Below, one piece after another: positions 6,293 to 20,786 of a stretch of DNA of 64,000 nucleotides. Within the stretch, counting starts at the first letter, position 1. Every line of letters starts with the position of its first letter. Source of the DNA: Lachnospiraceae bacterium (lineage in GTDB: Bacteria > Bacillota > Clostridia > Lachnospirales > Lachnospiraceae); the NCBI GenBank assembly GCA_017621075.1, contig JAGATV010000017.1, forward strand, positions 1-64,000, written 5' to 3'. Both the position numbers and the translations under genes were made by a program. The notes beneath the pieces are model-generated. The model saw only the letters and a list, made by a program, of their open reading frames with translations. It searched no databases and was not told where the DNA came from.

Positions 6293-6356
6293 TTACAGCC
6301 TCCCTTTCTTCCTGCAACCATGACTTATCATTATAATGCGCTGCGTCAGCAGAATC

Positions 6357-6385
6357 ATTATACCATACTCTCCTGCAAAAAGACA
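6357..6385 (-). promoter_or_regulatory. Probable sigma-A promoter of the xylB unit
   Basis: On the minus strand a TATAAT box (6357-6362) is preceded at 17 bases by TGTCTT (6380-6385). The -35 match is modest. The spacer and the roughly 60-nt leader before the xylB start are reasonable. Confidence 0.45.
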
Positions 6386-6388
6386 GTT

Positions 6389-7258
6389 CTAAAACAAGCT
6401 CAGTTGCTCATATCCCTTCTCCTCCGGGAACGTCCTCAAGTAAGCAAATACCTTTTCCGGTCTGCACTCTATGCCTGCTTCCCCGCATCTCTCCCGCAGA
6501 AGGCTCATCAGCTCCTCATTCCTGTCACTGTTCACCTCATAGGCGTATCCGTACCTCTGATGATATTTCTTCCTCATCCCCGGAAAATGCTTATCCAGAC
6601 AGGCATAGAAGTATTCACGGTTCCCTTCCCTGAGAGTAAGTCCCATACTGAAAACCACAATGCCGTACACTCCGGCACGGATGCAATAGTCGAGGATACC
6701 CTCGATATTTTCACGGGTATCGTTGATGAAAGGCAGAATGGGGTCCAGCCACACTACGGTGGGAATACCGCTTTCCTGCATGATCTGCAAAACTTCAAAC
6801 CGTCTTTTGGTAGTGCAGACATTCGGTTCCAGGATCTTACACAGATCCTCGTCGTAAGTGGTCAGCGTCATCTGTACCACACATTTGGACTGTCTGTGAA
6901 TGCTCTTTAATAAGTCCAGGTCCCGCAGGATACGGTCGGATTTGGTCTGTATCGCCAGCCCGAATCCATATCGGTCGATCAGTTCCAGACATCTCCGTGT
7001 CAGACCCAGCTCCTCCTCACAGTGCATATAGGGATCACACATCGCTCCCGTTCCGATCATGCACTTTTTGCGTTTGGAACAGAGCGCCCGCTCCAGAAGA
7101 AGGGGGGCATTCTGTTTGACCTCGATATCCTCAAATGCGTGATTGATCTGATAACATCTGCTGCGGCTGTCGCAATAGATACAGCCATGGGTACAGCCCC
7201 TGTACAGATTCATGCCGTTTTGGGCAGAAAGGATTCCCTTGGCGTCTACAAAATGCAT
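6389..7258 (-). CDS. SPL-family radical SAM protein
   Basis: A 289-residue radical SAM enzyme. The 4Fe-4S motif CTHGCIYC (CX3CX2C) sits near residue 20, and the length and following IGTGAMCDPY segment match the spore-photoproduct-lyase-like COG1533 group. Real SplB repairs spore DNA, but most members of this group have unknown substrates and this one lacks the extra C-terminal features needed to call it SplB. The start at 7258 is chosen because AGAGGTGAAGCT precedes it, and that site contains the stop codon of nspC (4-bp gap), so it is translated as the last gene of the polyamine operon. Its role there is unknown. Confidence 0.8.
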   Translation of the reverse strand: MHFVDAKGILSAQNGMNLYRGCTHGCIYCDSRSRCYQINHAFEDIEVKQNAPLLLERALCSKRKKCMIGTGAMCDPYMHCEEELGLTRRCLELIDRYGFGLAIQTKSDRILRDLDLLKSIHRQSKCVVQMTLTTYDEDLCKILEPNVCTTKRRFEVLQIMQESGIPTVVWLDPILPFINDTRENIEGILDYCIRAGVYGIVVFSMGLTLREGNREYFYACLDKHFPGMRKKYHQRYGYAYEVNSDRNEELMSLLRERCGEAGIECRPEKVFAYLRTFPEEKGYEQLSLF

Positions 7259-7262
7259 AGCT

Positions 7263-8462
7263 TCACCTCTTTCCCCCCAGCCTTCCCTTGAAGTCCTCAT
7301 AGCCAAAGGCTGCCAGAAGCCCGGTACTGCCGTCCTCCTTGAGCAGATAGATATCCGGTAGCGGCATCCCGTTGAAGGTATTGTTCTTGCACATTGTATA
7401 GATCGCCATATCTTCAAAGATCAGCCGGTCTCCCTCCCGAAGTTCTTCCGGGAAGCTGTATTCTCCTATCACATCCCCCGCCAGGCAGGTAGGCCCTCCC
7501 AGACGGCAGGTATAGGCATATTCTCCCGGCTTACCGGCCCCCATAAGAGGCGGGCGGTAAGGCATCTCCAACACATCCGGTGCATGACAGGCGGCAGACA
7601 TATCCAGGATCGCCACACCGCCAGGGCCCAGATCCAACACCTGAGTCACCAGATAGCCCGCATGTAGCGCCACCGCCTCGCCGGGCTCCAGATACACCTG
7701 CACATCATACTTTTCCTTGATACGGCAGATACACCTCTCCAGCAGCTCCACATCATAGTCCTTGCGGGTAATATGATGCCCTCCTCCCATGTTGAGCCAT
7801 TTCATCCGGGGCAGGAACTCTCCAAAGCGCTCCTCCACGGCCTCAAGGGTGCACTCCAGTGCATCCGCATTCTGCTCGCACAGGGTATGAAAATGGAGGC
7901 CGTCCAACAGTCCGATCCATTCTTCCCCCATCCGGGCATCCCACAACGCCCTGGTGGTCCCCAGTCTGCTTCCCGGTGCGCAGGGGTCATAGATGGCATG
8001 TCCCTCCTGGGTGGAGCATTCCGGATTCACCCGAAGTCCGATGCTCTTGCCGGCACGCTTCGCCTGTAAGCCGTACTTTTTCAGCTGTCCGGGGGAATTG
8101 AACACGATATGGTCCGCCCATTTCAGCAGCTCGTCAAATTCCTCTTGCCGGTACGCTGCGCAAAATACATGGCATTCCCTGTCAGGCATCTCTTCCGCAC
8201 CCAGCCTGGCTTCATAGAGTCCGCTGGCTTCCGTTCCCGCCAGATACTCTGACAAAAGAGGATACAGCTCATAGTTGGAAAATGCTTTCTGGGCAAGCAG
8301 GATCTTACAGCCGGTGCGCTCCTGCACCCCCTTTAGGATTTCCCCGTTCCTACGCAGCTTCCGCTCGTCGATCACATAGCAGGGAGTGGGCAGCTTTTCC
8401 AGGCTGTTCCTAAGTTCCCCTATCTTTTCCGCAGCAAGTTCCCTATCCTTTTTGTTTTCCAT
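7263..8462 (-). CDS. nspC: Carboxynorspermidine/carboxyspermidine decarboxylase
   Basis: A 399-residue PLP-dependent decarboxylase of the alanine-racemase fold (fold III). It removes CO2 from carboxyspermidine (or carboxynorspermidine) to give spermidine (or norspermidine). The PLP lysine is in LLAQKAFSNY (Lys59). Family marks include GLHFHTLCEQ, the glycine-rich NMGGGHHIT and the active-site segment GPTCLAGD. The start at 8462 uses AAGGAG five bases upstream; a GTG two codons earlier would overlap that site. It follows the matching dehydrogenase gene, giving the complete aspartate-semialdehyde-dependent route to spermidine. Confidence 0.93.
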   Translation of the reverse strand: MENKKDRELAAEKIGELRNSLEKLPTPCYVIDERKLRRNGEILKGVQERTGCKILLAQKAFSNYELYPLLSEYLAGTEASGLYEARLGAEEMPDRECHVFCAAYRQEEFDELLKWADHIVFNSPGQLKKYGLQAKRAGKSIGLRVNPECSTQEGHAIYDPCAPGSRLGTTRALWDARMGEEWIGLLDGLHFHTLCEQNADALECTLEAVEERFGEFLPRMKWLNMGGGHHITRKDYDVELLERCICRIKEKYDVQVYLEPGEAVALHAGYLVTQVLDLGPGGVAILDMSAACHAPDVLEMPYRPPLMGAGKPGEYAYTCRLGGPTCLAGDVIGEYSFPEELREGDRLIFEDMAIYTMCKNNTFNGMPLPDIYLLKEDGSTGLLAAFGYEDFKGRLGGKR

Positions 8463-8500
8463 GCCCACTCCTTCTCCGCATACTTCTTCTTATGTTCTCC

Positions 8501-8525
8501 CACAGATCCGTCCTGAGGATCTGTG
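8501..8525 (-). other. Intercistronic hairpin between lys1 and nspC
   Basis: A 9-bp perfect stem, CACAGATCC (8501-8509) and GGATCTGTG (8517-8525), lies in the 82-bp gap between the dehydrogenase and decarboxylase genes. No U-tract follows on the minus strand, so it is unlikely to terminate. It may affect mRNA processing or stability. Confidence 0.5.
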
Positions 8526-8544
8526 ACACCTATCCGCAGGCTGC

Positions 8545-9804
8545 TTATTCCACCAGCACCGGATTCTCCTCCACACTCCTTGGCAGTCCGTATCGGTCCA
8601 GGGCCTCCAGGAAGGGATCGGGATCGAACTCCTCCACAGTGTACACACCGGGCTTATTCCATTTGCCCGTAAGGAGCATCAGTGCCCCACACATGGCAGG
8701 CACTCCCGTAGTGTAACTGATCGCCTGGGATCCCACCTCTTTGTAGCACTCCTCGTGGTCGCACACATTATAGATATACCAGGTTTTTTCCCTGCCGTCC
8801 TTCCTGCCGGTAAAAATGCAGCCGATATTGGTCTTTCCCTTGGTACGGGGACCCAGGCTCGCAGGGTCCGGCAGCAACGCCTTCAAAAACTGGATGGGCA
8901 CGATCTCCCTTCCTTCGTACATCTCAGGCGTGGTGGACAACATGCCCACATCTTCCAGGCAGCGCATATGGTCCAGGTAACTCTGTCCAAAGGTCATAAA
9001 GAAGCGGATGCGCTTTACCTCGGGCAGATTCTTTGCCAGGGATTCGATCTCCTCATGATGCAGAAGATACATATCTTTTGTGCCCACCCGGTCAAAATCA
9101 TATTCCCGCTTGATGCTCATGGCAGGGATCTCTACCCAGCGGCCGTCCTCCCAGTAGCTGCCGGGTGCGGATACCTCTCTGAGATTGATCTCCGGATTGA
9201 AATTGGTGGCAAAAGCGTAACCGTGATCACCGCCGTTGCAGTCCAGGATGTCTATAGTGTCGATCTCATCAAATTCATGCTTTTTGGCATAAGCGCAATA
9301 AGCCTGGGTCACTCCGGGGTCAAAACCGGAGCCCAAAAGCGCCGTAAGCCCTGCCGCTTTAAACTTCTCCTGATATGCCCATTGCCAGGAATAGTCAAAA
9401 TATGCGGAGAAACCCGCCTCCCTGCAGCGCTTCTCATAAACGGCGCGCCACTTGGGGTCCTCCGTATCCTCCGGCTCGTAATTGGCCGTGTCCATATAAT
9501 TGACTCCGCATGCAAGGCAGGCATCCATAATGGTCAGATCCTGATAGGGCAGGGCGATATTCATGACCAGATCCGGCTGATAGGAACGGATCAGGGAAAT
9601 GACCTCCTCCACCTTGTCCGCATCCACCTTGGCGGTGGTGATGACCGTGGCGGTCCCGGGCGCCAGCTTGGCCGCCAGCGCATCACATTTTTCCTTGGTG
9701 CGGCTGGCAATGCAGATTTCCGTAAATACTTCACTGACCTGACAACATTTTTGAATGGCAACAGATGCCACCCCGCCGCAACCGATAATCAATACTCTGC
9801 TCAT
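8545..9804 (-). CDS. Carboxyspermidine dehydrogenase (saccharopine dehydrogenase-like)
   Basis: A 419-residue NAD(P)H-dependent reductase of the saccharopine dehydrogenase family (Lys1-like). In the alternative polyamine pathway it condenses putrescine with L-aspartate semialdehyde to carboxyspermidine, which NspC then decarboxylates. The N-terminal Rossmann motif VLIIGCGGVASVA is clear, as are the DTANYEPEDTED and FDYSWQWAYQEKF segments typical of this enzyme group. Genomic pairing with nspC and speB distinguishes it from lysine-pathway saccharopine dehydrogenases. Its ATG overlaps the speB stop codon (ATGA), so the two are translationally coupled. It cannot be told from sequence alone whether diaminopropane or putrescine is preferred; speB next door favours putrescine. 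Confidence 0.9.
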   Translation of the reverse strand: MSRVLIIGCGGVASVAIQKCCQVSEVFTEICIASRTKEKCDALAAKLAPGTATVITTAKVDADKVEEVISLIRSYQPDLVMNIALPYQDLTIMDACLACGVNYMDTANYEPEDTEDPKWRAVYEKRCREAGFSAYFDYSWQWAYQEKFKAAGLTALLGSGFDPGVTQAYCAYAKKHEFDEIDTIDILDCNGGDHGYAFATNFNPEINLREVSAPGSYWEDGRWVEIPAMSIKREYDFDRVGTKDMYLLHHEEIESLAKNLPEVKRIRFFMTFGQSYLDHMRCLEDVGMLSTTPEMYEGREIVPIQFLKALLPDPASLGPRTKGKTNIGCIFTGRKDGREKTWYIYNVCDHEECYKEVGSQAISYTTGVPAMCGALMLLTGKWNKPGVYTVEEFDPDPFLEALDRYGLPRSVEENPVLVE

Positions 9805-10700
9805 TTTCTCCTCCGTTCCGAAACATCACCGTTTCCCTTGTTTTTCTTTAAAAGTGCCAATAATACTTCTCTCACCACCTTGCAGGCCACAGCGGTGGAT
9901 GCTCCCGAAGCATCCAGCATGGGAGCCAGTTCATTCACATCCACTCCCACCACCTCTGTCTCTGCCACGGTGCAGACCGCCGCCAGCAGTTCCGGGAAAC
10001 TTACACCTCCCGCCTCCGGGGTGCCTGTGCCGGGAAAGGCCGACGGGTCCAGGCAGTCCAAGTCAATGGTCAGATACACCGGCACTCTTTGTGTGCGCAG
10101 GTTTTCTGTCACTTCCCTAAGTCCTTTAAAATCAAACCGGTGAAGGTCCGTGTGTTCTGCCGCAAAGGCAAATTCACTCCGCTCACCGCTGCGGATGCAG
10201 AATTGATGGATGCGTCCGTCCCCCATCAGTTCCTGGCAGCGCCTCAGCACGCATGCATGGCTTAAGCGGGCCCCCAGGTAATCCTCCCTGAGATCCGCAT
10301 GGGCATCAAAATGGATGATGTGAAGCTGCGGCCACTGTTTCAGAGCCGCCCGCACCGCCCCCAGGGTCACCAGGTGCTCCCCGCCCATCATAAAGGGCAG
10401 CTTGCCATCCTCTATGATCTGTGACGCCCTGTCCTCAATATCCTGCAAAGCCGCCTCAGACGAACCAAAGCACAGCTCCAGATCCCCGCTGTCAAACACC
10501 TGATAATCCGTAAGATCCTCATCCTGATAAGGACTGTAGGTCTCCAGGCCATAGCTTTCATGGCGGATGGCCGATGAGCCGAAACGGGCTCCCGGACGAT
10601 AGCTTGTGGTGGAATCAAAGGGGGCGCCAAACAGCACGATTTCCGATTCCGGATAATCCCCATCACAGCCGATGAAAGTTTCAACATTTCTTTCCAACAT
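9801..10700 (-). CDS. speB: Agmatinase (ureohydrolase family)
   Basis: A 299-residue Mn2+-dependent ureohydrolase that hydrolyses agmatine to putrescine and urea. The metal ligands are visible: His109 in GGEHLVTLG, the DAHAD motif at 132-136, and DLD at 213-215. Length matches SpeB (about 290-300). I place the start at 10700 (MLERNVETF), with AAGGAG 11 bases upstream. The alternative GTG at 10712 would sit directly on that site. Between speE and the carboxyspermidine dehydrogenase gene, it completes arginine to putrescine with SpeA. Arginase or formiminoglutamase activity is less likely given the operon. Confidence 0.93.
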   Translation of the reverse strand: MLERNVETFIGCDGDYPESEIVLFGAPFDSTTSYRPGARFGSSAIRHESYGLETYSPYQDEDLTDYQVFDSGDLELCFGSSEAALQDIEDRASQIIEDGKLPFMMGGEHLVTLGAVRAALKQWPQLHIIHFDAHADLREDYLGARLSHACVLRRCQELMGDGRIHQFCIRSGERSEFAFAAEHTDLHRFDFKGLREVTENLRTQRVPVYLTIDLDCLDPSAFPGTGTPEAGGVSFPELLAAVCTVAETEVVGVDVNELAPMLDASGASTAVACKVVREVLLALLKKNKGNGDVSERRRK

Positions 10701-10740
10701 ATTCTCCGTCACTCCTTTTTGCCGATCCTGTACCTTGTTC

Positions 10741-11595
10741 CTACCGCTCTACTTCCTCCAGCATTTCCTCTAAGAAAGCCGGCAGATAAAAAGCTCCCAC
10801 ATGCAGACGGGTCGTGTAATAGCGTGTTCTGAGATGCTTACTGTTCCATCTGTCCGGGTTTAAGTCCTCTATAGGATGATATTTCTTGCTGGCGAAGCCG
10901 AACAGCCAGTAGCCTGCCGCATAGGTGGGAATATGCGCCTGGTATACCCGGCTGATGGGAAAGGTATTCACGATCCGCTTGTGACTGCGCTGCATGGCCA
11001 TGGCATCCTCCGCATAAAAGGGGCTTCCCTGCTGATTGACCATGATGCCGTCCTCCTCCAGCGCCTTGTAGCAGTTGCCATAAAATTCCCTGGTAAACAG
11101 CCCCTCCGACGGTCCGAAGGGATCGTTGGAATCCACGATGATCAGATCATACTGATCCTCACACCTGCGGATAAATTTCAAAGCGTTCTCGTAGTAGATA
11201 TGGACTCTCTCATCATCCAGACGGCAGGCATTCTCTGGCAGATACTGACGGCAGGCCTCCGCCACCATCTCATCCATCTCCACCAGATCGATACGGGTAA
11301 TCTGTTCATAGCGGGTCAGCTCCCTGACTACACCGCCGTCACCCACGCCGATGACCAGCACTTTTGTAATATTGGGATGCACCGCCATTGGCACATGCAC
11401 GATCATTTCATCATAAATGAACTCATCTCTCTCGGTCAGCATGATATTGCCGTCCAACACTAACACCCTTCCAAACTCCGGTGTCTCCAGCACATCTATC
11501 TTCTGGTAGTCACTTTTTTTGGAATACAGCTGTCTGTCTACCCGAAGACTCAGCTTTACATCCGGGGTATGACTCTCACTGAACCATAATTCCAT
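10741..11595 (-). CDS. speE: Spermidine synthase-type aminopropyltransferase
   Basis: A 284-residue protein with the SpeE layout: a small N-terminal beta domain, then a Rossmann methyltransferase-like domain with the nucleotide motif VIGVGDGGVVREL and the active-site segment DSNDPFGPSEGLF, where classical enzymes usually read DSTDPxGP. SpeE transfers the aminopropyl group of decarboxylated SAM to putrescine. GGAGGG precedes the start at 11595. The SAM decarboxylase gene speD is absent from this operon and window, while a second complete spermidine route (dehydrogenase and nspC) is present. SpeE therefore either depends on a distant speD or makes another product. Confidence 0.9.
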   Translation of the reverse strand: MELWFSESHTPDVKLSLRVDRQLYSKKSDYQKIDVLETPEFGRVLVLDGNIMLTERDEFIYDEMIVHVPMAVHPNITKVLVIGVGDGGVVRELTRYEQITRIDLVEMDEMVAEACRQYLPENACRLDDERVHIYYENALKFIRRCEDQYDLIIVDSNDPFGPSEGLFTREFYGNCYKALEEDGIMVNQQGSPFYAEDAMAMQRSHKRIVNTFPISRVYQAHIPTYAAGYWLFGFASKKYHPIEDLNPDRWNSKHLRTRYYTTRLHVGAFYLPAFLEEMLEEVER

Positions 11596-11645
11596 TTCCG
11601 CCCTCCATTCACTTTCCGCATCTTTGGTGTCACAAAAATCTGTCT

Positions 11646-13175
11646 TTATTTCAGCACATTTAAGTACTTGATATCCGGATCCGCAGGACCTGTCATGTTA
11701 CAGCCCTTGATCTTTGCATAATTGATATATTTCAGAATATCCGGGGTGATCCGCTCTCCCGGTGCCAGAATGGGAATGCCCGGCGGATAGCACATGACAA
11801 ATTCACTGCAGATACGCCCTGTAGTCTCCATTAGCGGCAGGCTGATCTTGTCCGCATAGAATGCCTCCTGGGGACTGGCCACCACTTCCGGATCAATATA
11901 TTCCTGGGTCAGCATACCCGACGGGTCCTTCTGGTAACGGCGGCGGATCTCCGCCAGTGCGCTGACCAGCCGCTCCACCTCCTGCCACCTGTCTCCGATG
12001 GACAGATACGCCAGGATATTGCCAAGATCACCAAACTCTATCTGGATATCGTAATCATCCCGCAGCGTGTCATAGACCTCAATTCCCGCCAGACCGATAT
12101 CCAGGGTATGAATGCTCAGCTTCACCGGGTCAAAGTCAAACACCGAGTCCCCGTTGATCAGTTCCCTGCCGAAAGCATAATACCCGCCGATCTGATTCAC
12201 CTCATCTCTGGCATATTCCGCCAGTTCACAGACATGCCGGAACACTTCCCTGCCCCTGAGAGCCAGATTCCGCCTTGAAATATCCAAACTGGACATGAGA
12301 AGATAGCTGCCGGAGGTGGTCTGAGTCAGATTGATGATCTGCCTTACATAACCCTCCTGTACATTGGGCCCTGCCAACAGGAAGCTGGACTGGGTCAGGC
12401 TGCCTCCGCTCTTATGCATCGACACTGCCGCCATATCCGCTCCTGCTGCCATGGCGGATACAGGGAGATCGTCTCCGAAATAAAAGTGGGTGCCATGGGC
12501 CTCGTCTGCCAGGCACAGCATCCCTGCATCATGGGCCATCTCCACGATCGCCTTCAGATCCGAGCACACACCGTAGTAAGTGGGGTTGTTCACCAGAATG
12601 GCTACCGCATTGGGATGTTCCGCTATGGCTTTAGCCACCTGCTCCCGCTTCATGCCCAGGGAGATGCCCAGTCTTTTGTCCACATCCGGATTCACATACA
12701 CGGGAACGGCTCCACACAGCACCAGTGCGTTGATGACACTTCTATGGACATTCCTGGGCAGGATGATCTCATCCCCCCGCTTGCAGGCAGTCAGCACCAT
12801 ACTCTGCACGGAACTGGTAGTGCCTCCCACCATCAGAAAAGCATGCGCCGCACCAAAAGCCTCTGCCGCCAGCTGCTCCGCCTCTCTGATCACCGAAATG
12901 GGATGGCAGAGATTATCCAGTGGCTTCATGCTGTTTACATCCACACCCACACACTGCTCTCCCAAAAATTGCGTCAGTTCCGGATTGCCCCGTCCTCTCT
13001 TATGTCCGGGGACATCAAACGGCACCACCCGCATCTTTCGGAACCGCTCCAACGCCTCATAGATCGGCGCCCGGTTCTGATCCAGATCCTTGTGGGTGTT
13101 CCCTGCGCCCTCTTGTTCCATACCGCCCTCCGGCTTTGTTTTTCTTTGCTCCTGATTTTCCATGGCCACATCCAT
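11646..13175 (-). CDS. speA: Arginine decarboxylase, Orn/Lys/Arg decarboxylase fold I family
   Basis: A PLP-dependent decarboxylase of about 509 residues, of the small Gram-positive type lacking the N-terminal wing domain. The PLP lysine is Lys255 in SMHKSGGSLTQ, with DEAHGTHF (224-231) supplying the cofactor aspartate; PGHKRGRG near residue 56 is a family mark. Substrate arginine is inferred from the downstream speB; lysine or ornithine cannot be excluded from sequence. The frame is open back to 13220, inside the upstream terminator, so the real start is probably ATG 13175 (after GAAGAAAGAG) or ATG 13163. It is the first gene of the polyamine operon, and its leader holds a large structured RNA. 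Confidence 0.9.
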   Translation of the reverse strand: MDVAMENQEQRKTKPEGGMEQEGAGNTHKDLDQNRAPIYEALERFRKMRVVPFDVPGHKRGRGNPELTQFLGEQCVGVDVNSMKPLDNLCHPISVIREAEQLAAEAFGAAHAFLMVGGTTSSVQSMVLTACKRGDEIILPRNVHRSVINALVLCGAVPVYVNPDVDKRLGISLGMKREQVAKAIAEHPNAVAILVNNPTYYGVCSDLKAIVEMAHDAGMLCLADEAHGTHFYFGDDLPVSAMAAGADMAAVSMHKSGGSLTQSSFLLAGPNVQEGYVRQIINLTQTTSGSYLLMSSLDISRRNLALRGREVFRHVCELAEYARDEVNQIGGYYAFGRELINGDSVFDFDPVKLSIHTLDIGLAGIEVYDTLRDDYDIQIEFGDLGNILAYLSIGDRWQEVERLVSALAEIRRRYQKDPSGMLTQEYIDPEVVASPQEAFYADKISLPLMETTGRICSEFVMCYPPGIPILAPGERITPDILKYINYAKIKGCNMTGPADPDIKYLNVLK

Positions 13176-13197
13176 CTCTTTCTTCACTCGTAAATAC

Positions 13198-13234
13198 AAA
13201 AAAGCAAGACCCGTGCACACATCACCTGTCTTGC
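13198..13234 (-). terminator. Terminator at the end of the speA leader RNA
   Basis: On the minus strand GCAAGAC (13234-13228), a 17-nt loop and GTCTTGC (13210-13204) form a stem followed by TTTTTT (13203-13198). It ends about 23-35 nt before the possible speA start codons. Its 5' arm and loop contain ACAGG, which could also pair with the upstream CCTGT at 13260-13264, a competing pairing that would open the terminator. Confidence 0.75.
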
Positions 13235-13580
13235 TTCAAAATTCGTCCTTTAGGCCCTTACAGGCAGATATTTCCTGTGGGGCTTTGAATTTGGATTGGT
13301 CAGAGTCTATATAGCAATTACACTTTTACTACTCTTATTGACTGTTTCACAAGTCAGTGCGTCAGCACCTTTTCGGTTTCAATCTTTCTTACAGAAAACC
13401 AACTTATAAAATTTGAGCTCTTAACTCCCGGAGCTTTGGAAACTCCGCAATCAATAAGGCAACGAAAGTTGCCAGTCGGCAGTGGACCCGGCTGTCCGTA
13501 TGGCCTTGACTTCCCCACAAGAGAAGTGGTCCCAAATTGCTCTGAAAAGACCCTGAATCATCTCAATCTTTTCAAAAAGT
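13198..13580 (-). ncRNA. Large structured leader RNA upstream of speA (class unassigned)
   Basis: About 380 nt lie between a strong promoter and a U-tract terminator. On the minus strand there are many stable hairpins: GGCAAC-TTTC-GTTGCC (13473-13458), CGGAG/CTCCG (13447-13429), ACTTC/GAAGT with an outer GGACC/GGTCC helix (about 13532-13484), GTGC-TGAC-GCAC and GACT/AGTC. AATTTGG (13538-13532) can pair with CCAAATT (13294-13288), while TCAGAG (13545-13540) can pair with CTCTGA (13305-13300), which together make a pseudoknot. I find no T-box, SAM, lysine, cobalamin or ykkC core. It may be a standalone RNA (the raiA motif is one candidate by general resemblance, unverified) or a polyamine-operon riboswitch. 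No credible ORF fits it. Confidence 0.65.
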
Positions 13581-13586
13581 AGTTAT

Positions 13587-13615
13587 ATGTTATCATCCCG
13601 CAACTGCTTTGTCAA
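13587..13615 (-). promoter_or_regulatory. Sigma-A promoter of the leader RNA and polyamine operon
   Basis: TTGACA (13610-13615) and TAACAT (13587-13592) lie on the minus strand with a 17-base spacer. The perfect -35 box points to strong transcription of the leader RNA. Start of transcription is expected near 13580. Confidence 0.7.
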
Positions 13616-13905
13616 TCATCCCATCCGGAAAAATACATCAAAAATTGCATCCCTATCAATCCCTACATACAACAGCGTATCTATCAGTGCCATTTCTTTC
13701 TCCTCATCACACGCCAAAATGCTCACTTCGATCGCCCCGCTCTATTCCTCTGAAGGAATTCCGACAGGATTCCTTCACGGATACACTCCCCAAACGCCCG
13801 TTCCGTCGCTTCATTTCCGGCTGTTTTCCGTCCCGTTATAAAATACCGCAAAATACGGAGTAGGAAGTTTGATCATAAAAAATTCTTAAGATTATCCCGA
13901 CACCA
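13616..13905. other. Intergenic stretch between divergent promoters
   Basis: About 290 bases with no convincing gene. Short open frames here lack ribosome sites and family features. The only structure seen is an inverted repeat, TGAAGGAAT (13751-13759) with ATTCCTTCA (13769-13777), without a U-tract. Confidence 0.5.
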
Positions 13906-13934
13906 TTGTCATTTACAATATATAGTACTATAAT
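13906..13934 (+). promoter_or_regulatory. Sigma-A promoter of the tocopherol-cyclase-like gene
   Basis: TTGTCA (13906-13911), 17-base spacer and perfect TATAAT (13929-13934), about 50 bases before the ATG at 13986. The spacer end and -10 box include the small palindrome TATAGTACTATA. Confidence 0.75.
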
Positions 13935-13985
13935 AGAGATAATGAACACGATATCTAGCGTAACCAAAGAATAGAGAAGATACTG

Positions 13986-15119
13986 ATGAATCGATCCGAC
14001 TTAGATAGAAATGCTTATATGCTGCGCGGTCCTTTAGCCAAACGAGGATATGTGCGCTGGTACCACTCTTTCAAAGGAATGGCACCGGGCACCGGGAATA
14101 TGCGCACTTTTTTTGTGGAATATCTCATCCTGAATCCTGCCCTGGGATCTTCCCAGCCTATTTTGGGACAACACCCTTATTTTAAGAGGCGCAGGATGAA
14201 GCCCTCTTATGTGATGGTAAAAGCAGGCGTCTTTCCTGACGAGAACGGAGAAGACGGCAGGCAGTTAAATGCTTTTTACCCCATGACCTCACTGAAGGTC
14301 ACCCAAAGTCCTTTTACCCTGCAGACAGAAGACTGCTTCTACAGTGAAAACCGCATTGCAGGATTTATCGATGTTTCAGCGGCGAAGGCCCGCCACCGCT
14401 CCCTGATGACAGATGCCGGCTGTATGGAATGGGATCTGGAGATTCACAAGGCAGTATCCTGCCACACCGGATTCATTGCCAATCCTTTCTTTACTGCCAT
14501 CGGAGCCCTCAACAGTTTCTGGCACGGAGAAGGCATCCGTTCTTTCTTCCAGGGAACCGTTTCCCTGGATGGTGTGGTTTATGAGGTCATTCCCGACCAA
14601 AGCTATGGCTATGCCGACAAACACTGGGGCCGAAGTTTCAACAATCCGTTATTGCGCCTTTCCTCCGGACATATCGTCAGCGGCCGCACCGGCCGGGATT
14701 TGAAGCATTCCGCCCTTGCCGTGGACGGCTGTTGTCCCAAGTTTCTGTGTTTTCCGTTGCGGCGAAGGCTTATCATTCAACTGACCTATATGGGAGAAGA
14801 TTTTGAATTTCATTTTGCGAGGCCCGGGACGCTGTCCCGCTGCAAATGGAAGGTAACGGAGACCAACAAACGGTTTATCTGGCACATCATGGCTCAAAAC
14901 AAAGATGCCGTCCTTAAATTGATCTTAAGCTGTACCAAAGAACACTTGATGGATCTGACTTATGAAAACCCCGACGGCAGCCTTACTGCCGCTCCTCTCC
15001 TGGGAGGCGGCTGTGGCGTGGGTACGATTGAACTCTATCGCCGCCAGGCAGGATCAGTACAGTTGATCGATACCCTTTCTGTCAAGGACGCTCTCTGTGA
15101 ATATCAGTCCCAAGCCTAA
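13986..15119 (+). CDS. Tocopherol cyclase-like family protein
   Basis: A 377-residue soluble protein with no signal peptide or membrane segment. It resembles the tocopherol-cyclase/AttH/CrtC-like lipocalin-fold superfamily: the N-terminal KRGYVRWYHSFKG segment, the central EWDLEIHKAVSCHTGF region, and DQSYGYADKHWGRSF with its conserved W-G-R. Plant and cyanobacterial relatives cyclise prenylated quinols, but an anaerobic Firmicute is not expected to make tocopherol, and bacterial homologues are uncharacterised. It is transcribed alone from a good promoter, divergent from the polyamine operon, and ends in a strong terminator. A lipid or terpenoid substrate is only a guess. Confidence 0.7.
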   Translation: MNRSDLDRNAYMLRGPLAKRGYVRWYHSFKGMAPGTGNMRTFFVEYLILNPALGSSQPILGQHPYFKRRRMKPSYVMVKAGVFPDENGEDGRQLNAFYPMTSLKVTQSPFTLQTEDCFYSENRIAGFIDVSAAKARHRSLMTDAGCMEWDLEIHKAVSCHTGFIANPFFTAIGALNSFWHGEGIRSFFQGTVSLDGVVYEVIPDQSYGYADKHWGRSFNNPLLRLSSGHIVSGRTGRDLKHSALAVDGCCPKFLCFPLRRRLIIQLTYMGEDFEFHFARPGTLSRCKWKVTETNKRFIWHIMAQNKDAVLKLILSCTKEHLMDLTYENPDGSLTAAPLLGGGCGVGTIELYRRQAGSVQLIDTLSVKDALCEYQSQA

Positions 15120-15156
15120 AAAACAGGGGCTGCGGCATCGCCGCAGCCCCTGTCTC
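15118..15156. terminator. Bidirectional terminator between tocopherol-cyclase-like gene and iscR-like gene
   Basis: A 14-bp GC-rich stem (15123-15136 and 15140-15153) with a three-base loop separates two convergent genes. On the minus strand it is followed by TTTTTT, making a strong terminator for the regulator gene. On the plus strand the U-tract is weaker. Confidence 0.85.
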
Positions 15157-15175
15157 ATCCTTTTCCACATCAGTA

Positions 15176-15616
15176 TCAGATACTGAAATCATACATTTCA
15201 AGACGTTTGTTATGTTGTTCCACAAGATCGGCAATGGTTACATTATCCACGACCTTGTTGATGGCATCATACAGATCCTTCCATACCTGGAGCGTGTCAC
15301 AGATATCCCCCCGTTCACACTCATCTGCATTTTCTCCCAGACAGGCTACCGGGGCCAATGACCCCTCCGTCAGTCTAAGGATCATTCCCACGGTGTATTC
15401 TCTCGGATCTTTCGCAATGCGGTATCCTCCCTGGGCACCCCGCACGCTCTTGACGAAGCCAGCCTTATTTAAGACCGCAATGATCTGCTCCAGATATTTC
15501 TCGGAAACTCCCTGACGGGTCGCAATATCCTTTACCTTAATGCACTCTCCCGTATTGTGCAATGCCAGATCCAACATGACCCGCACTGCATATCTGCCCT
15601 TTGTCGAGATCTTCAT
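15176..15616 (-). CDS. Rrf2/IscR-family transcriptional regulator
   Basis: A 146-residue winged-helix regulator beginning MKISTKGRYAVRVMLDLA, the Rrf2-family signature. The recognition region SVRGAQGGYRIAK is present, and three cysteines (Cys92, Cys100, Cys106; CX7CX5C) stand where IscR binds a 2Fe-2S cluster, so it is probably a redox or Fe-S sensor rather than a cluster-less CymR. No isc or suf genes are near; the closest genes are the methionine importer, raising the possibility of control of sulfur amino acid uptake. It has its own promoter and terminator. Target genes are inferred, not shown. Confidence 0.88.
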   Translation of the reverse strand: MKISTKGRYAVRVMLDLALHNTGECIKVKDIATRQGVSEKYLEQIIAVLNKAGFVKSVRGAQGGYRIAKDPREYTVGMILRLTEGSLAPVACLGENADECERGDICDTLQVWKDLYDAINKVVDNVTIADLVEQHNKRLEMYDFSI

Positions 15617-15661
15617 GATTTACCTTTCTATTTCCTAGTATCTCTATATGATTACATTAAA

Positions 15662-15690
15662 ATAATACTCTATGGTTCTTCCCTTGTCAA
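15662..15690 (-). promoter_or_regulatory. Sigma-A promoter of the Rrf2-family regulator
   Basis: TTGACA (15685-15690), 17-base spacer and TATTAT (15662-15667) on the minus strand, directly downstream of the metI stop codon. The stretch CATAGAGTATTAT around the -10 resembles part of the dyad at the metQ promoter, which could mean shared control; this is weak evidence. Confidence 0.7.
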
Positions 15691-15697
15691 GAAGATT

Positions 15698-16333
15698 TTA
15701 GGAAAGCTTCTTATAAAGCAGGTTTCCGATACTTTGAATGATTTGCACAAACACGATCAATATGATACTTGTCACGATCAGATAATTCACTTTGTATGCC
15801 TGATAGCCGTAACGGATCGCCACGTCTCCGAGACCTCCTGCGCCGATGGCTCCTCCCATTGCACTGTAACCGATCAGGCTGATCATGGTAAGCGTGATCC
15901 CCGAAAGGATCGACGGCACGGCTTCTTTCAGATAAACTCTGAAAATAATCTGTGCATCACTGGCTCCGAAAGACCTGGCTGCCTCGATCAATCCACTGTC
16001 CACTCCCCGCAGCGCAGATTCGATGACCCTGGCCACAAAGGGAATTGCGGAAATCGTCAATGGCACAATGGCTGCCGTAGTTCCGATGGCTTTCCCCACT
16101 AACAGCCGGGTAAACGGAATCACAATGACCATCAGAATAATGAAAGGGAAGCTTCTGAAAGTATTCACCAAAAAATCCAGTATCCCGTAAATGATCTTAT
16201 TGGGTTTCAATCCGTCCGGTGCTGTCAGTGTCAGGACGATCGCCGGGATAAAACCAATGATGACCGAAAACAGGGTGGACCAGAATACCATTGTAAGTGT
16301 CTGTCCTGTAGCTTTGATAATAATATCCGTCAT
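15698..16333 (-). CDS. metI: Methionine ABC transporter permease
   Basis: A 211-residue inner permease with about five membrane helices and the ABC coupling motif in ESALRGVDSGLIEAARSFGAS (EAA loop). MetI forms the membrane channel of the MetNIQ importer for methionine and its derivatives. It follows metN with one base between stop and start and is the last gene of the unit. Length and sequence are typical of the family. Confidence 0.93.
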   Translation of the reverse strand: MTDIIIKATGQTLTMVFWSTLFSVIIGFIPAIVLTLTAPDGLKPNKIIYGILDFLVNTFRSFPFIILMVIVIPFTRLLVGKAIGTTAAIVPLTISAIPFVARVIESALRGVDSGLIEAARSFGASDAQIIFRVYLKEAVPSILSGITLTMISLIGYSAMGGAIGAGGLGDVAIRYGYQAYKVNYLIVTSIILIVFVQIIQSIGNLLYKKLS

Positions 16334-16334
16334 A

Positions 16335-17300
16335 TCAGAGTTCCTCCCACAATACGTTGATTTTATCTAAATACTCTGTAACCTTTTCCTTGTCGCTTTC
16401 CTTGATATTGATCACAAGGCTTCCCAAAATCGTGCCCCGGAAATTGTCCAGCTTACCCTGGCAGATTGAGAAATCAATTCCCAGCGTTCTGGCCAGTTGT
16501 GTGATAACATGATCCTCGGAATTTTCATTGTTAAAAAACAGTTTGATATTGATGCCTGTCCTGGGCAGGATGTCCAGATGTTCTCCCACGAACTGCTGGA
16601 TCTCCTTATTGGGAGAGACAAACAGTTCTTCCGGTCTTCCCATGGCAACATTTCTGCCGTCTTTAATAAAAATCATCTTATTACAGATCTCTTTCACCAC
16701 TTCCATCTGGTGGGTCACCAAAATGATGGTGATGTTCATCTCCTTATTGATCTTGGACAGCAGGGCCAGAATCCCTTTGGTAATCTGCGGATCAAGTGCC
16801 GAAGTTGCCTCGTCGCACAGCAGGATCTTGGGATCCAGCACCAGAGCCCTGGCAATGGCCACTCTCTGCTTCTGACCGCCGCTTAACTGCCTGGGATAGC
16901 TGTGGACCTTGTCCTCCAGTCCCACCAGCGCTAACAGCTCCATGATCTTTTTTCTGTTCTCCTCACTGTCCTTCTTCTGCCCCCAGAATTGCAGCGGAAG
17001 CGCTATATTATCATAGACATCCAGCCGGTTCAGCAAATTGAAATTCTGGAAGATCATTCCCATTCCTTTCTGGACATTGCGAAGCTCCTTCTTATTGAGG
17101 GAGGACACTTCCTTATCTTCAATAAAAATAGACCCTTCATTATAGGTTTCCAAACCGTTGATGCACCTGAGTAATGTGGATTTGCCGGCTCCGCTCTGTC
17201 CGATGATCCCATAGATGTCCCCCTGCTCGATCTCAAGCGAGATATCCTCCAGAACTTTCAGTTCCCCAAAGCTCTTTCCCAAATTTTGGATGCGTATCAT
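16335..17300 (-). CDS. metN: Methionine ABC transporter ATP-binding protein
   Basis: A 321-residue ATPase that powers MetNIQ. Walker A GQSGAGKST, signature LSGGQKQR and Walker B ILLCDEATSALD are present, followed by a C-terminal NIL/ACT-like domain (about residues 245-321) that in MetN binds methionine and shuts the transporter down. The start at 17300 (MIRIQNLGKSF) is supported by AAAGGAG about 11 bases upstream; the in-frame extension further upstream overlaps the terminator after metQ. Confidence 0.93.
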   Translation of the reverse strand: MIRIQNLGKSFGELKVLEDISLEIEQGDIYGIIGQSGAGKSTLLRCINGLETYNEGSIFIEDKEVSSLNKKELRNVQKGMGMIFQNFNLLNRLDVYDNIALPLQFWGQKKDSEENRKKIMELLALVGLEDKVHSYPRQLSGGQKQRVAIARALVLDPKILLCDEATSALDPQITKGILALLSKINKEMNITIILVTHQMEVVKEICNKMIFIKDGRNVAMGRPEELFVSPNKEIQQFVGEHLDILPRTGINIKLFFNNENSEDHVITQLARTLGIDFSICQGKLDNFRGTILGSLVINIKESDKEKVTEYLDKINVLWEEL

Positions 17301-17321
17301 ATATCCTGCTTCTCCTTTACT

Positions 17322-17383
17322 AAAAAAACTATCCATCTGGCGACATATCTATATTACACCGAAGTCGCCGCCAGATAAATAGT
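17322..17383 (-). terminator. Internal terminator between metQ and metN
   Basis: A 15-base arm (17369-17383) pairs with 17328-17342 with only two or three non-Watson-Crick positions, followed on the minus strand by a run of U (17327-17322). It lies between metQ and metN. Such a partial terminator would give more binding protein than transporter from a single promoter. Confidence 0.75.
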
Positions 17384-17418
17384 CTTTTTCATTTTCCGCA
17401 AAATTCCAGAAATCTTTC

Positions 17419-18333
17419 TTAGAATGCAGGAATTACGGAACCTGTGTACTTTTCTTCAATATACTTCTTGACATCTTCATTCTGCAGAGCTGCGATCAGG
17501 GCCTTGGTCTTTGCGGTCTGCTCATTTCCTTCCTTAACTACAAGATAGTTGATGTACTTGTAGCTCTCATCACTGTCGGCAAGTTCTGCAACGAGAGCAT
17601 CCGTCTGAGGATTCAGATTGGCTTCCAGTGCATAGTTTCCGTTGATGACTGCAGCATCCACATCATCAAGGGAGCGGGGAAGGTTTGCAGCATCCAGCTC
17701 CAAAATCTCAAAGTTGTGAGGGTTTTCGCTTACATTTGACAGGTTATAAAGATCATCTGTCTCGCTCAGCTTGATCAAGCCATTGTCTGCAAGCAGCTTT
17801 AAAGCACGGGACTCGTTGGAGCCGTCATTGGGAACTGCAATGGTTGCTCCGTCAGGAAGCTCCTCCAGGGACTTTGCTTCACTTGCATACAAGCCCATGG
17901 GTTCCAAATGGATACCTGCCACCTCTACCAGATGAAGGCCTCTTTCCTGATTCTGCTCCTGCAGATAGCGGATGGTCTGAAAATAGTTTGCATCCAGCTC
18001 ACCGTCTTCCAGGGCTGTATTGGGCTGTACATAGTCATTGAATTCTACTACATCTACCTTCCAGCCTGCTGCTTCCAACTTTCCCTTGACTACGTCATTG
18101 ACGATTTCTGCATGGGGCACCGGAGTCACTCCGATGGAGATCACATTGTCCTCTCCCTCTGGAACAGGGATTCCGTCAACCTCTGCGGGTGCAGCCGATG
18201 TACTCTCCACTGTGGCCTCTGAAGAAGGTGTGCTGCCTGCCGGAGCTGATGCTCCCTTTTCCGTACTGCCGCATCCGGTAAGCACCGATACCGTGAACGC
18301 TGCTACCAGAACTTTTGCCAATAATTTTTTCAT
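17419..18333 (-). CDS. metQ: Methionine-binding lipoprotein of the MetNIQ importer
   Basis: A 304-residue NlpA/MetQ-family lipoprotein. The signal peptide ends in the lipobox LTGCGS with Cys21 as the lipidated residue, then a serine/alanine-rich tether to about residue 50 and the solute-binding domain (VISIGVTPVPHAEIV onwards). It captures methionine outside the membrane and hands it to MetI. It is the first gene of the unit, under a promoter overlapped by a strong dyad, and is separated from metN by a terminator. Confidence 0.93.
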   Translation of the reverse strand: MKKLLAKVLVAAFTVSVLTGCGSTEKGASAPAGSTPSSEATVESTSAAPAEVDGIPVPEGEDNVISIGVTPVPHAEIVNDVVKGKLEAAGWKVDVVEFNDYVQPNTALEDGELDANYFQTIRYLQEQNQERGLHLVEVAGIHLEPMGLYASEAKSLEELPDGATIAVPNDGSNESRALKLLADNGLIKLSETDDLYNLSNVSENPHNFEILELDAANLPRSLDDVDAAVINGNYALEANLNPQTDALVAELADSDESYKYINYLVVKEGNEQTAKTKALIAALQNEDVKKYIEEKYTGSVIPAF

Positions 18334-18392
18334 AATGTTCTCCTCCTGTTTCCATCTACCTTTGTAGATATTTTGCCGTTTGGCTTTTTCAT

Positions 18393-18428
18393 AGTATTCA
18401 TACTATAATACTATGAATACTTTGTCAA
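18393..18428 (-). promoter_or_regulatory. metQ promoter with an overlapping dyad operator
   Basis: TTGACA (18423-18428), 17-base spacer and TAGTAT (18400-18405) form a good sigma-A promoter. The spacer and -10 box are covered by a perfect inverted repeat: AGTATTCATA (18393-18402), nine bases, TATGAATACT (18412-18421). A repressor bound there would block polymerase. No S-box or T-box leader is present before metQ, so control is probably by a protein, perhaps the Rrf2-family regulator encoded downstream. Confidence 0.7.
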
Positions 18429-18542
18429 CACCTTTTTGCAAATTATTTGAATTATTTTTAAATTGTTTCATTAGACTTTGCTACAAGGTGGTAGTATACT
18501 ATTATATATGTTACATTGCAAGTGATGAAAGGGATTTTGTTT

Positions 18543-20786
18543 ATGGAAACTGCAGAAGATATCCAGATCATCCATACCACCGGCCGGAACAACTGTGGCG
18601 GACGCTGCATCATCCATGCTCATGTAAAGGACGGACAGATCATAAAGCTCACTTCTGATACTCCCGGGGAAGCTGCCCGCAGCGGGCAGGACTTTCCTCT
18701 CTGTGCCTGTGTACGGGGTCTCAATTACCACAAAACCTTTCTCTCTCCGGACAGGCTCCGTTATCCCATGAAACGGATCGGAGAGCGGGGAGAAGGCAAA
18801 TTTGAACGTATTACCTGGGAGGAAGCAGTTTCCATGATCTCCCGGGAATGGATCCGGATACGCGACACCTACGGTCCCGGGTCCCGCTATGTCAATTATG
18901 CCACCGGAGTCAGCGGCCTGATGCGCGGCAACGAACTTGCCAAGCGGCTGCTTGCCTTGGACGGTGGTTTCCTTGATTATTATAATTCCTACAGCACGGC
19001 CTGCATCAGACAGGCCACTACCCTGATGTACGGAACAAATGAGACCGGCAATGACCTTGCCGACTGGCAAAACAGCCATCTGATCATTTTGCTGGGCCAC
19101 AACCCTATGGAGACCAAATTTGACTGCGGCACCATGTACTATTTGAGAAAGGCAAAGGAAAAAGGCATCCCTATCGTCGTGATCGATCCCCGCAAAAATG
19201 ATACGGTGCTCGCCTTAGATGCAGAGTGGATCCCCATCAGACCGGCAACGGACAGCGCCCTCACCGATGCCATGGCATACGTGATCGTATCCGAGCATCT
19301 GCAGGACCAGGATTTCCTTGACCGCTGCTGCCTTGGTTTTGACAAAGAGCATATGCCTGCCGGAGTAGATCCCGGGGAATGTTATCTTTCTTATCTGAAC
19401 GGAGAAAAGGACGGCATTCCCAAAACGCCTGCCTGGGCAGAAGCGATCACCGGGATTCCCGCAGATACGATCATCAGTCTCGCACGCCGATATGCCCTTG
19501 CCAAACCTGCCGCCCTGATCCAGGGGTTTGGGGCTCAGAGAAATGCAAATGGCGAACAGAGTGTGCGTGGCGGTATCCTGTTAGCATGTATGACGGGCAA
19601 TGTGGGAGTAAGCGGCGGATGGGCCAGCGGTGTTGCGGACTGCACCAGACACCAAAACCCTCATCTTGACCTCCCGGACAATCCTTATCCCATGCAGATC
19701 CCCGTTTACCGTTGGACGGATGCCGTTGTCAGAGGACATGAAATGACCGCTCTTGACGGCGTTACCGGCGGCAGGCAATTACAGAGCGATATCAAGATGA
19801 TCATCAATCTGGCCGGGAACTGCCTGATCAATCAGCACGGTGATATCAATCGCACAAAGGAAATCCTGAAAGACACCTCAAAATGTGAATTTATCCTCTG
19901 CAGCGATCTGTTTATGACCGCCAGTGCCAAATTTGCGGATATCCTTCTTCCCGGTATTTCCATGTTTGAGGGAGAAAATATCACTATGCCCTGGCAGTAC
20001 GGAGATTTTATCGGATTCAACAACAAGGTGATAGAGCCTCTCTATGAGGGGCGTTTTGAATATGACTGGCTGGTGGAGGTGGCCGAAAGATTGGGCCTTA
20101 GGGAAGCGTTCTCACAGGGCAGGACCACCGGGGAATGGCTGGAATATCTGTATCGGGAACTTCAAAAAACCGAAAAGGAGCTGCCTGACTACCAGACTTT
20201 CAAAAAGGCCGGCATTTACCGCTATCGCCATAACACTCCTGTCATTGCCTTTGAAAAGGAACGCAGGGACCCTGTACAGTATCCTTTTCCCACGCCAAGC
20301 GGCAAGATCGAAATTTTTTCCAAAACAGTCTTTCAGACAGAATATGAAGACTTTTTCCCTGCCATCCCCCGATATGTGGCCCCTCCCGAGGGGCCTCAGG
20401 ATGCTCTGGCCTCCCGGTATCCGCTGCAGTTGATCGGCTGGCATACCAAAAGACGCTGTCACAGCATCCATGACAATAACCCCGAAATGCAGAAGATCGA
20501 TCCCCAAAAGCTTTGGATGCATCCCTTGGATGCCCTTAGCCGCGGGATCCGGGACGGAGACACGGTACTGGTCTTCAATGATCGCGGACAGCTTCTGATC
20601 CCTGTCAAAGTCACCGACAGGATCATGCAGGGTGTTACCGCTATGGCCCAGGGCGCCTGGTACGATCCCGATCCCTCGGGCACCGACAAGGGAGGCTCCA
20701 TCAATGTACTGACCTCTCTGAAAACAACGCCTTACGCCAGAGGAAACGCCCAGCATACCAACCTGGTGGAAGTACGCAAAGCCTGA
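18543..20786 (+). CDS. DMSO-reductase-family molybdopterin oxidoreductase, orphan subunit
   Basis: A 747-residue catalytic subunit related to DmsA, binding bis-MGD molybdenum. The N-terminus has NNCGGRC and later LCACVRG. Compared with the DmsA pattern CxxxCxxxC...C, the first cysteine is replaced by Gly and an extra Cys appears in LCAC. YYNSYSTACIRQ carries the predicted Ser ligand to Mo. RLRYPMKRIGERGEGKFERI and the C-terminal molydopterin-binding domain are typical. There is no Tat signal, so the protein should be cytoplasmic, and no iron-sulfur or membrane anchor partner (DmsB/DmsC) is adjacent. The start at 18543 follows GAAAGGG; an in-frame ATG at 18516 is less likely. Substrate unknown. 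Confidence 0.85.
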   Translation: METAEDIQIIHTTGRNNCGGRCIIHAHVKDGQIIKLTSDTPGEAARSGQDFPLCACVRGLNYHKTFLSPDRLRYPMKRIGERGEGKFERITWEEAVSMISREWIRIRDTYGPGSRYVNYATGVSGLMRGNELAKRLLALDGGFLDYYNSYSTACIRQATTLMYGTNETGNDLADWQNSHLIILLGHNPMETKFDCGTMYYLRKAKEKGIPIVVIDPRKNDTVLALDAEWIPIRPATDSALTDAMAYVIVSEHLQDQDFLDRCCLGFDKEHMPAGVDPGECYLSYLNGEKDGIPKTPAWAEAITGIPADTIISLARRYALAKPAALIQGFGAQRNANGEQSVRGGILLACMTGNVGVSGGWASGVADCTRHQNPHLDLPDNPYPMQIPVYRWTDAVVRGHEMTALDGVTGGRQLQSDIKMIINLAGNCLINQHGDINRTKEILKDTSKCEFILCSDLFMTASAKFADILLPGISMFEGENITMPWQYGDFIGFNNKVIEPLYEGRFEYDWLVEVAERLGLREAFSQGRTTGEWLEYLYRELQKTEKELPDYQTFKKAGIYRYRHNTPVIAFEKERRDPVQYPFPTPSGKIEIFSKTVFQTEYEDFFPAIPRYVAPPEGPQDALASRYPLQLIGWHTKRRCHSIHDNNPEMQKIDPQKLWMHPLDALSRGIRDGDTVLVFNDRGQLLIPVKVTDRIMQGVTAMAQGAWYDPDPSGTDKGGSINVLTSLKTTPYARGNAQHTNLVEVRKA

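Follow-up and report, generated by a model that had tools for sequence, protein, structure and literature searches.

The stretch of DNA analysed, termed the window, comprises 64,000 nucleotides of contig JAGATV010000017.1 from a Lachnospiraceae bacterium. Its minus strand carries a presumed operon (7263-13175) for polyamine metabolism, which begins with a speA-type Orn/Lys/Arg decarboxylase gene preceded by a long untranslated leader (Table 1). With the aminopropyltransferase SpeE and the carboxynorspermidine enzyme pair, the operon encodes parts of two spermidine routes. Upon inspection of the ORFs at 6000-20000 of the window, done without profiles, no speD was noticed.

The leader and its terminator

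A promoter, a strongly folded leader of about 380 nt and a U-tract terminator just ahead of speA had been proposed in a preliminary description of this region, and all of them are present. The minus-strand leader has a minimum free energy of -123.5 kcal/mol (z = -5.04), with none of 100 shuffled sequences being as stable. The terminator hairpin amounts to -17.0 kcal/mol in a scan for the most stable hairpin, and the ATG at 13175 lies directly beyond it; a simpler terminator scan with a loop limit of 3-8 gave two other hairpins instead of this one. The motifs TCAGAG, AATTTGG, CCAAATT, CCTGT, and ACAGG are likewise located where they had been described.

Table 1. Features of the polyamine operon and its leader in the window (P, paired helix; coordinates of paired strands are separated by a slash)
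Feature	Position	Strand	Remarks
Promoter TTGACA-17-TAACAT	13587..13615 (-35, 13615-13610; -10, 13592-13587)	minus	consensus match only; sigma-70-like
Outer stem CAGGGUC / GACUCUG	13549..13555 / 13301-13307	minus	outer extension of P0
Folded domain	13301..13542	minus	covariance model R1 matched over its full length (158 bits; E 3.2e-38 in own genome, where this is the sole match)
P0 GCAAUU / AAUUGC	13535..13540 / 13314-13319	minus	closes domain
Rfam RF02440 (SpF59_sRNA, 'ldcC RNA') match	13476..13532	minus	spans P1-P3
P1 GGACC / GGUCC	13532-13528 / 13488-13484	minus	encloses P2, P3
P2	13527-13523 / 13513-13509	minus	
P3 GGC / GCC	13505-13503 / 13492-13490	minus	pairing absent from Rfam model
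Possible pseudoknot CGG (in ACGGACA loop, P3 loop) / CCG (in UGCCG)	13476..13498 (13498-13496 / 13479-13477)	minus	
P4 hairpin GGCAAC / GUUGCC	13458..13473	minus	
P5 UUAUUGA / UCAAUAA	13457-13451 / 13341-13335	minus	almost invariant; encloses P6-P9
P6	about 13450-13413	minus	inserted hairpin in window copy
P7 UUUUAUAAGU / ACUUGUGAAA	13411-13402 / 13354-13345	minus	3' strand doubles as terminator-arm partner
P8	13400-13396 / 13379-13375	minus	
P9	13368-13365 / 13360-13357	minus	
Highly conserved GAGUAGUAAAAGU	13322..13334	minus	near-invariant in training set
Alternative pairing ACUUGU / ACAGGU	13354-13349 / 13229-13224	minus	
Intrinsic terminator (hairpin + U tract)	13198..13237	minus	5' arm carries ACAGGU 13229-13224
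speA-type Orn/Lys/Arg decarboxylase	11646..13175	minus	OKR_DC_1, E 5e-70; start 13175 inferred
Remaining genes of presumed operon	7263..11595	minus	
speE	10741-11595	minus	presumed operon
Agmatinase	9801-10712	minus	presumed operon
Carboxynorspermidine synthase/dehydrogenase-like	8545-9804	minus	below curated cut-off; presumed operon
Carboxynorspermidine decarboxylase nspC	7263-8468	minus	presumed operon

Fold of the leader and its known fragment

The leader had been thought to match no recognisable RNA class. The Rfam scan proposed at that time assigns it to RF02440; the match scores 71.1 bits, where 37.2 are required, and covers all 54 model positions (1-54). No other family matches the window at gathering score, and a search of 13150-13700 up to E = 10 gave nothing beyond chance except RF02440. 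A raiA-type RNA, the main alternative put forward previously, gave no match up to E = 10; the raiA model presumably was part of the Rfam library searched. SAM-I-type and other known riboswitches were rejected for lack of an Rfam match, with no SAM family appearing up to E = 10. Upon searching 14 control genomes with RF02440, a match was found in one, Lactococcus lactis.

As modelled by Rfam, RF02440 is a 54-nt RNA that is typed as a Streptococcus sRNA and has no function named. We take SP0916 of Streptococcus pneumoniae to be a lysine/arginine decarboxylase gene, with which the name 'ldcC RNA' would be consistent. According to the available excerpts, the pneumococcal homologue, termed F59, srn235, SN20, or Spd_sr49, is a short transcript from the SP0915-SP0916 interval on the strand of SP0916 (PMC3395615, PMC12323649), and was matched in the genomes of all 385 of 385 compared strains (PMC12323649). 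It is listed under lung fitness in a review (PMC4387999, in excerpt), and the Tn-seq mutants srn235 and SN20 are given a low lung fitness of 0.05 each (PMC3395615, in excerpt). The window RNA and the pneumococcal RNA share the P1-P3 core as well as the position ahead of a gene on the same strand, SP0916 in the latter case. While RF02440 is confined to P1-P3, the conserved RNA extends over about 210 nt in the alignment of relatives and is followed by a terminator, and the part modelled by Rfam is absent or lost in some members.

The full-length covariance model R1 is based on a hand-written structure comprising P0 to P9 and was built from 25 of 69 loci (training alignment A3), chosen for clean ends and few insertions; alignment A2 is without seven of the 69 loci (L028, L040, L050, L054, L055, L058, and L110). 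In the training set, 93.2% of the cells are paired, versus 33-45% upon sliding the partners by 1-3 columns. Among 68 loci, the paired fraction is 94.7%, both-side changes occur in 35 of 56 pairs (shuffles, 23.0; slid, 13-21), and 346 cells are double-changed as opposed to 88.9 in shuffles. The 63 matches outside the training alignment are paired to 92.7%, with both-side changes in 43 of 56 pairs (shuffles, 24.7; slid, 12-25). The slid controls of these two larger alignments are paired to 32-45%; since the model itself guided these alignments, they lean towards it. Covarying pairs are present in nine of the ten model helices in the 68 loci, the exception being the almost invariant P5. Comparison of the sequences, thus, reveals an aptamer-type domain that is conserved and covaries.

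For the closing helix P0, both-side changes were seen in six of seven model pairs in alignment A4 and in seven of seven in A5. In the outer stem (5' AGAGUC-type, 3' GACUCU), matched partners surpass swapped ones (1/3000) in a test covering 54 loci, with 15 of the 69 loci left out by a pattern miss, including L059, which does carry ACUCUG. These two helices take the place of the pseudoknot suggested previously. AATTTGG had been paired with CCAAATT, a linker motif that the conserved model does not include; the conserved partner is AATTGC (13319-13314), and GCAATT/AATTGC is the covarying helix P0. Instead of TCAGAG/CTCTGA, the position of the AGAGUC of relatives is occupied by CAGGGUC, pairing with GACUCUG.

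Within the P1-P3 region, one P3 pair that Rfam treats as unpaired is C-G instead of G-C in 17 of 68 loci. Between 16 and 20 of the 63 rows of A5 have gaps at P1-P3; therefore, members without this domain exist. A pseudoknot between CGG and CCG, which are invariant in the training set, is possible. In addition, GAGU within GAGUAGUAAAAGU could form a candidate pseudoknot with P0 through ACUC in 13307-13301, both being near-invariant in the training set; by eye, a GAGC/GCUC version is seen in L168, and no ACUC partner is obvious in some members, e.g., L021, L023, and L026. In P6, the window copy contains an inserted hairpin (CGGAG..CUCCG), with an insertion at this site in few of the aligned relatives. 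As read from the alignment, the clade of the L068 type has a different helix in place of P7. Two loci, L166 and L167 (about 1501-1720), are strongly shortened as judged by eye; P1-P4 and the UUUUAUAAGU strand are not apparent, and CUUGUGAA, GAGUAGUAAAAGU, and P0 are retained. In L166 and L167, CUUGUGAA seems to be placed in a small hairpin loop, hinting at a role beyond P7 pairing.

Distribution and downstream genes

R1 matches were obtained in 59 of 250 genomes of the same family (RF02440 alone, 42/250), in 25 of 398 of the same phylum (RF02440 alone, 18/398), and in 41 of 291 of the same class. Among the phylum and class matches, 37 family labels are represented, of which a few rest on weak matches (E down to 4e-4). 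The distribution is patchy; the only further genome sampled from the genus of the window organism is without the RNA, and in the family of G348 one of six genomes is matched. Each matched genome has one copy, except G196 with two in tandem; therefore, no genome with a multi-copy regulon is among them. In L249, two nearly identical tandem copies (308-487 and 699-877), 391 bases apart, precede a sugar-type acetyltransferase gene and speD and would be due either to recent duplication or to the assembly.

A pattern scan of contigs, in which the pattern was one letter too long, gave 83 stretches, most of which look like chance. Ten were retained by eye, comprising seven at Rfam gathering score, two matching R1 (L115, L127), and L110, which apparently is the L056 contig (identical length and sequence); the other 73 were without a match in the downstream tblastn search. 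Two stretches with the pattern occur in viral sequences. An origin from phages or plasmids was rejected, with no match in the phage collection and a single Paenibacillus replicon, unannotated there, in the plasmid collection. In L124, a Clostridiales-1 RNA (RF01699, 108.5 bits, 7303-7470) is located on the opposite strand, about 140 bases away from the match to RF02440.

As neighbouring gene of each locus, we counted the first ORF on the same strand that had a minimum length of 180 aa (set 1) or 150 aa (set 2) or ran off the contig end; shorter ORFs were passed over, ORFs nested in others were discarded, and for L011 the second of two overlapping ORFs was taken by hand. The tally excludes L115 and L245 and counts L110/L056 twice, so that 129 entries correspond to 128 distinct loci. 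The first sizeable downstream gene is polyamine-related in 120 of the 129 loci (60/68 in set 1 and 60/61 in set 2), namely a speA/ldcC-type decarboxylase gene in 57, speD in 40, the importer gene potA in 13, and a carboxynorspermidine dehydrogenase gene in 10. Homologues are, thus, consistently associated with genes of one metabolite, the lack of which association would have spoken against the preliminary description. Set 1 consists of 33 Orn/Lys/Arg decarboxylases, 20 AdoMet decarboxylases (speD), seven saccharopine/carboxynorspermidine dehydrogenases, and, as non-polyamine genes, four M28 and four C70/C39 peptidases. Set 2 consists of 24 Orn/Lys/Arg decarboxylases, 20 speD, three saccharopine/carboxynorspermidine dehydrogenases, 13 ABC ATPases, and one acetyltransferase. 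The best NCBIfam match of the ABC ATPases is a spermidine/putrescine transporter ATPase in 13 of 13 cases, above cut-off in 11. Among the 24 loci that R1 added to those of RF02440 in the family and phylum samples, a polyamine gene comes first in 22; in the remaining two, the acetyltransferase gene is followed by speD (L249), and no ORF is contained in the fetched stretch (L245).

Apart from L249, the exceptions are eight loci ahead of secreted-type peptidases (M28 or C39/C70), i.e., L015 from a same-family genome and seven pattern-scan contigs titled Clostridia, Clostridiales, or Blautia (L068, L076, L095, L113, L118, L120, and L124). All eight genomes have a single copy of the RNA. In the first terminator scan, which did not include L076 and L124, terminators were found in L015, L068, L095, L113, and L120, and not in L118.

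Two routes of synthesis and import would have the polyamine itself in common. The view that the RNA is a stand-alone trans-acting sRNA that happens to precede polyamine genes could draw on the sRNA typing of RF02440, on its place among 76 candidate sRNAs (PMC12323649, in excerpt), and on the short transcripts catalogued in pneumococcus. It is very improbable in view of the location on the same strand upstream of four kinds of polyamine gene and of the covariation of the terminator arm with the folded domain described below; a short transcript would also be yielded by an attenuator.

Alternative pairing and proposed control

A terminator-like hairpin with a T tract, at -12 kcal/mol or better, was found in 122 of 129 regions as opposed to 10-18 in five dinucleotide-shuffled sets; the scan picks the hairpin of lowest energy in a stretch of 420 nt. 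This hairpin sometimes lies elsewhere, even within the gene (L009, L239), and the count is, hence, to be read against the shuffled controls. The first scan gave hairpins in 72 of 74 loci (none in L050 and L118; L076 and L124 missed) and the second one in 61 of 62 (none in L260).

The 5' arm of the terminator has its complement in the strand formed by the end of P9 and the start of the 3' side of P7 (..CAUCA-ACUUGU..). The partners differ between loci, such as CAUC-A-ACUUGU with GCAAGUGAUG in L005, the core AUCAUCUUGU with the arm AGAUGAUG in the L021/L051 type, and CACAUCC with GGUGAUGUG in the L068 type; the pairing of the window itself is modest (-11.4). In 72 loci, matched partners have a mean of -13.2 kcal/mol versus -10.1 kcal/mol for swapped ones (0/5000 permutations, relatedness between loci not removed), and in a second set of 61 loci, seven of them common to the first, -12.4 versus -9.4 (0/5000, relatedness likewise not removed); these tests include L052 and L167 with wrong anchors as well as L248 and L259, in which the anchored strand is without CUUGUGAA. 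Segments displaced by 20-80 nt reach -3.5 to -7.3 kcal/mol. The alternative pairing is incompatible with the formation of P7 and of the terminator, and the arrangement, therefore, has the build of an antiterminator. An expression platform with mutually exclusive pairings is, thus, recognisable, its energetic balance being unexplained. In the switch originally suggested, CCTGT would change between ACAGG of the linker and ACAGG of the terminator; CCTGT together with the linker ACAGG is found in two of the 72 loci scanned, L001 (the window) and L007, and the conserved alternative is ACUUGU/ACAGGU. Summarizing, the core of the preliminary description, that the polyamine genes have a leader whose terminator can be switched, is well supported by the association with these genes, the covariation of the helices, the terminators, and the alternative pairing, which also covaries, while its particular pseudoknot and switch pairings had to be replaced.

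Equilibrium folding was calculated with nearest-neighbour energies, without ligand or pseudoknots. For transcripts ending with the 5' arm, the mean probability of pairing of the strand is 0.69 on the upstream (P7) side versus 0.09 with the arm. Upstream pairing equals or exceeds arm pairing in 56 of 65 loci, with L052 showing neither. When the antiterminator is enforced, the median cost is 7.1 kcal/mol (0.4 to 19.7; window copy, 15.2). The antiterminator as equilibrium default is, hence, not supported by the folding, which favours the terminator-permissive fold in most loci. Given these unfavourable energetics, either the antiterminator would have to be favoured by kinetics or by a factor, or the sign of control would be the reverse of that proposed here.

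Comparison of related loci establishes the fold, its association with polyamine genes, the presence of a terminator, and the covariation of the alternative pairing. It is considered fairly probable that the leader is a cis-acting transcription attenuator of the polyamine operon, and probably a polyamine riboswitch which switches the genes off at plenty. The RNA would fold into a closed domain, with P0 around P1-P9, followed by the intrinsic terminator. In the alternative state, the 3' strand of P9/P7 would pair with the 5' arm of the terminator, by which the terminator would be blocked. Binding of a polyamine, i.e., spermidine or putrescine, would stabilise the folded domain, keeping P7/P9 closed and the terminator arm free, and transcription would stop when polyamines are plentiful. 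Upon scarcity, the strand and the terminator arm would pair and the genes for synthesis or uptake would be read. The comparative data fix the partners of the alternative pairing; the polyamine as signal, its direct binding, and the switch-off direction are what we infer from them.

Polyamine status might also be sensed indirectly by a cis attenuator, through an RNA-binding protein, the ribosome, or pausing of RNA polymerase. The finding that equilibrium folding alone does not favour the antiterminator would fit with such a mode, as would the persistence, judged by eye, of CUUGUGAAA and GAGUAGUAAAAGU in the shortened L166 and L167. Nevertheless, it is deemed unlikely; nine covarying helices and many invariant bases would exceed the usual needs of a protein site, and there is no leader peptide common to all members. 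ORFs of at least 8 codons preceded by a Shine-Dalgarno sequence were found in 22 of 65 leaders, none of them common. Recurrent small ORFs among relatives are one starting with MQIF.. (L002, L012, L020, L029), a 9-codon TTG ORF (L056/L110, L115, L127), and a 12-13-codon ORF (L034, L036, L041). A precedent for control by a leader peptide is speFL.

Less probable still is a riboswitch of the same build that responds to another metabolite, such as SAM, decarboxylated SAM, arginine, agmatine, ornithine, or lysine, or that turns the genes on. SAM is a substrate of SpeD, as are arginine/lysine/ornithine of SpeA-type enzymes, and in the absence of ligand the folded state has the lower energy, both of which would agree with this view. 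Against it, operons with potA or with genes of the carboxynorspermidine route would share with speD and speA chiefly the polyamine end product, and no SAM riboswitch family is matched. Of the signals considered originally (polyamine, arginine, or agmatine), polyamine is accordingly favoured, whereas arginine and agmatine appear less likely because the RNA also precedes potA and genes of the carboxynorspermidine route.

For a polyamine riboswitch ahead of these operons, the closest known system is the spermidine riboswitch, a SAM-I variant with a spermidine-triggered terminator/antiterminator that is associated with ldcC, speB, and speE (PMC10853860, in excerpt). It has the same outline of control as proposed here. 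According to the same excerpt, it adopts a SAM-I fold (13 aligned representatives), whereas the window RNA is larger, differs in architecture, and has no SAM match up to E = 10. Earlier claims of polyamine riboswitches are called unconvincing in the abstract of that paper, and in the portions of the literature covered the SAM-I variant is the sole spermidine riboswitch class met. The odc1 and potE motifs are likewise candidate cis-regulatory RNAs ahead of polyamine genes (PMC8632094); as far as the excerpt describes them, odc1 is an alphaproteobacterial hairpin concerned with start-codon choice and has a conserved uORF, and potE, from Veillonella, has no obvious expression platform, both being unlike the window RNA. 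For potB of Borrelia burgdorferi, spermidine lowers the importer mRNA and premature 3' ends rise (PMC10319736), which resembles the control proposed here; unlike in the window RNA, the premature end is inside the ORF, and the excerpt describes no comparable leader. Terms for polyamine genes are absent from the available text of PMC11109978, PMC6429828, PMC2864571, PMC7266159, and PMC6296669. In the excerpts of the literature on polyamine regulation and RNA discovery, which do not extend to a 2017 survey, the RNA is not described as a cis-regulator or riboswitch. That survey is said to comprise 224 candidate RNAs.

From this scenario, the leader is probably a widespread, hitherto unrecognised polyamine-controlled gene switch. 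It is, on balance, also suggested that it represents a new polyamine riboswitch class, unrelated to the SAM-I variant, which would control synthesis as well as uptake in 37 or more families of bacteria within the phylum of the window organism, and of which the pneumococcal sRNA would be the terminated product. If this is true, the pneumococcal sRNA would become a testable cis-regulator, and its lung-fitness phenotype may reflect a mis-set next operon. A common RNA ahead of the genes for synthesis and import would explain how polyamines are kept in balance in many bacteria.
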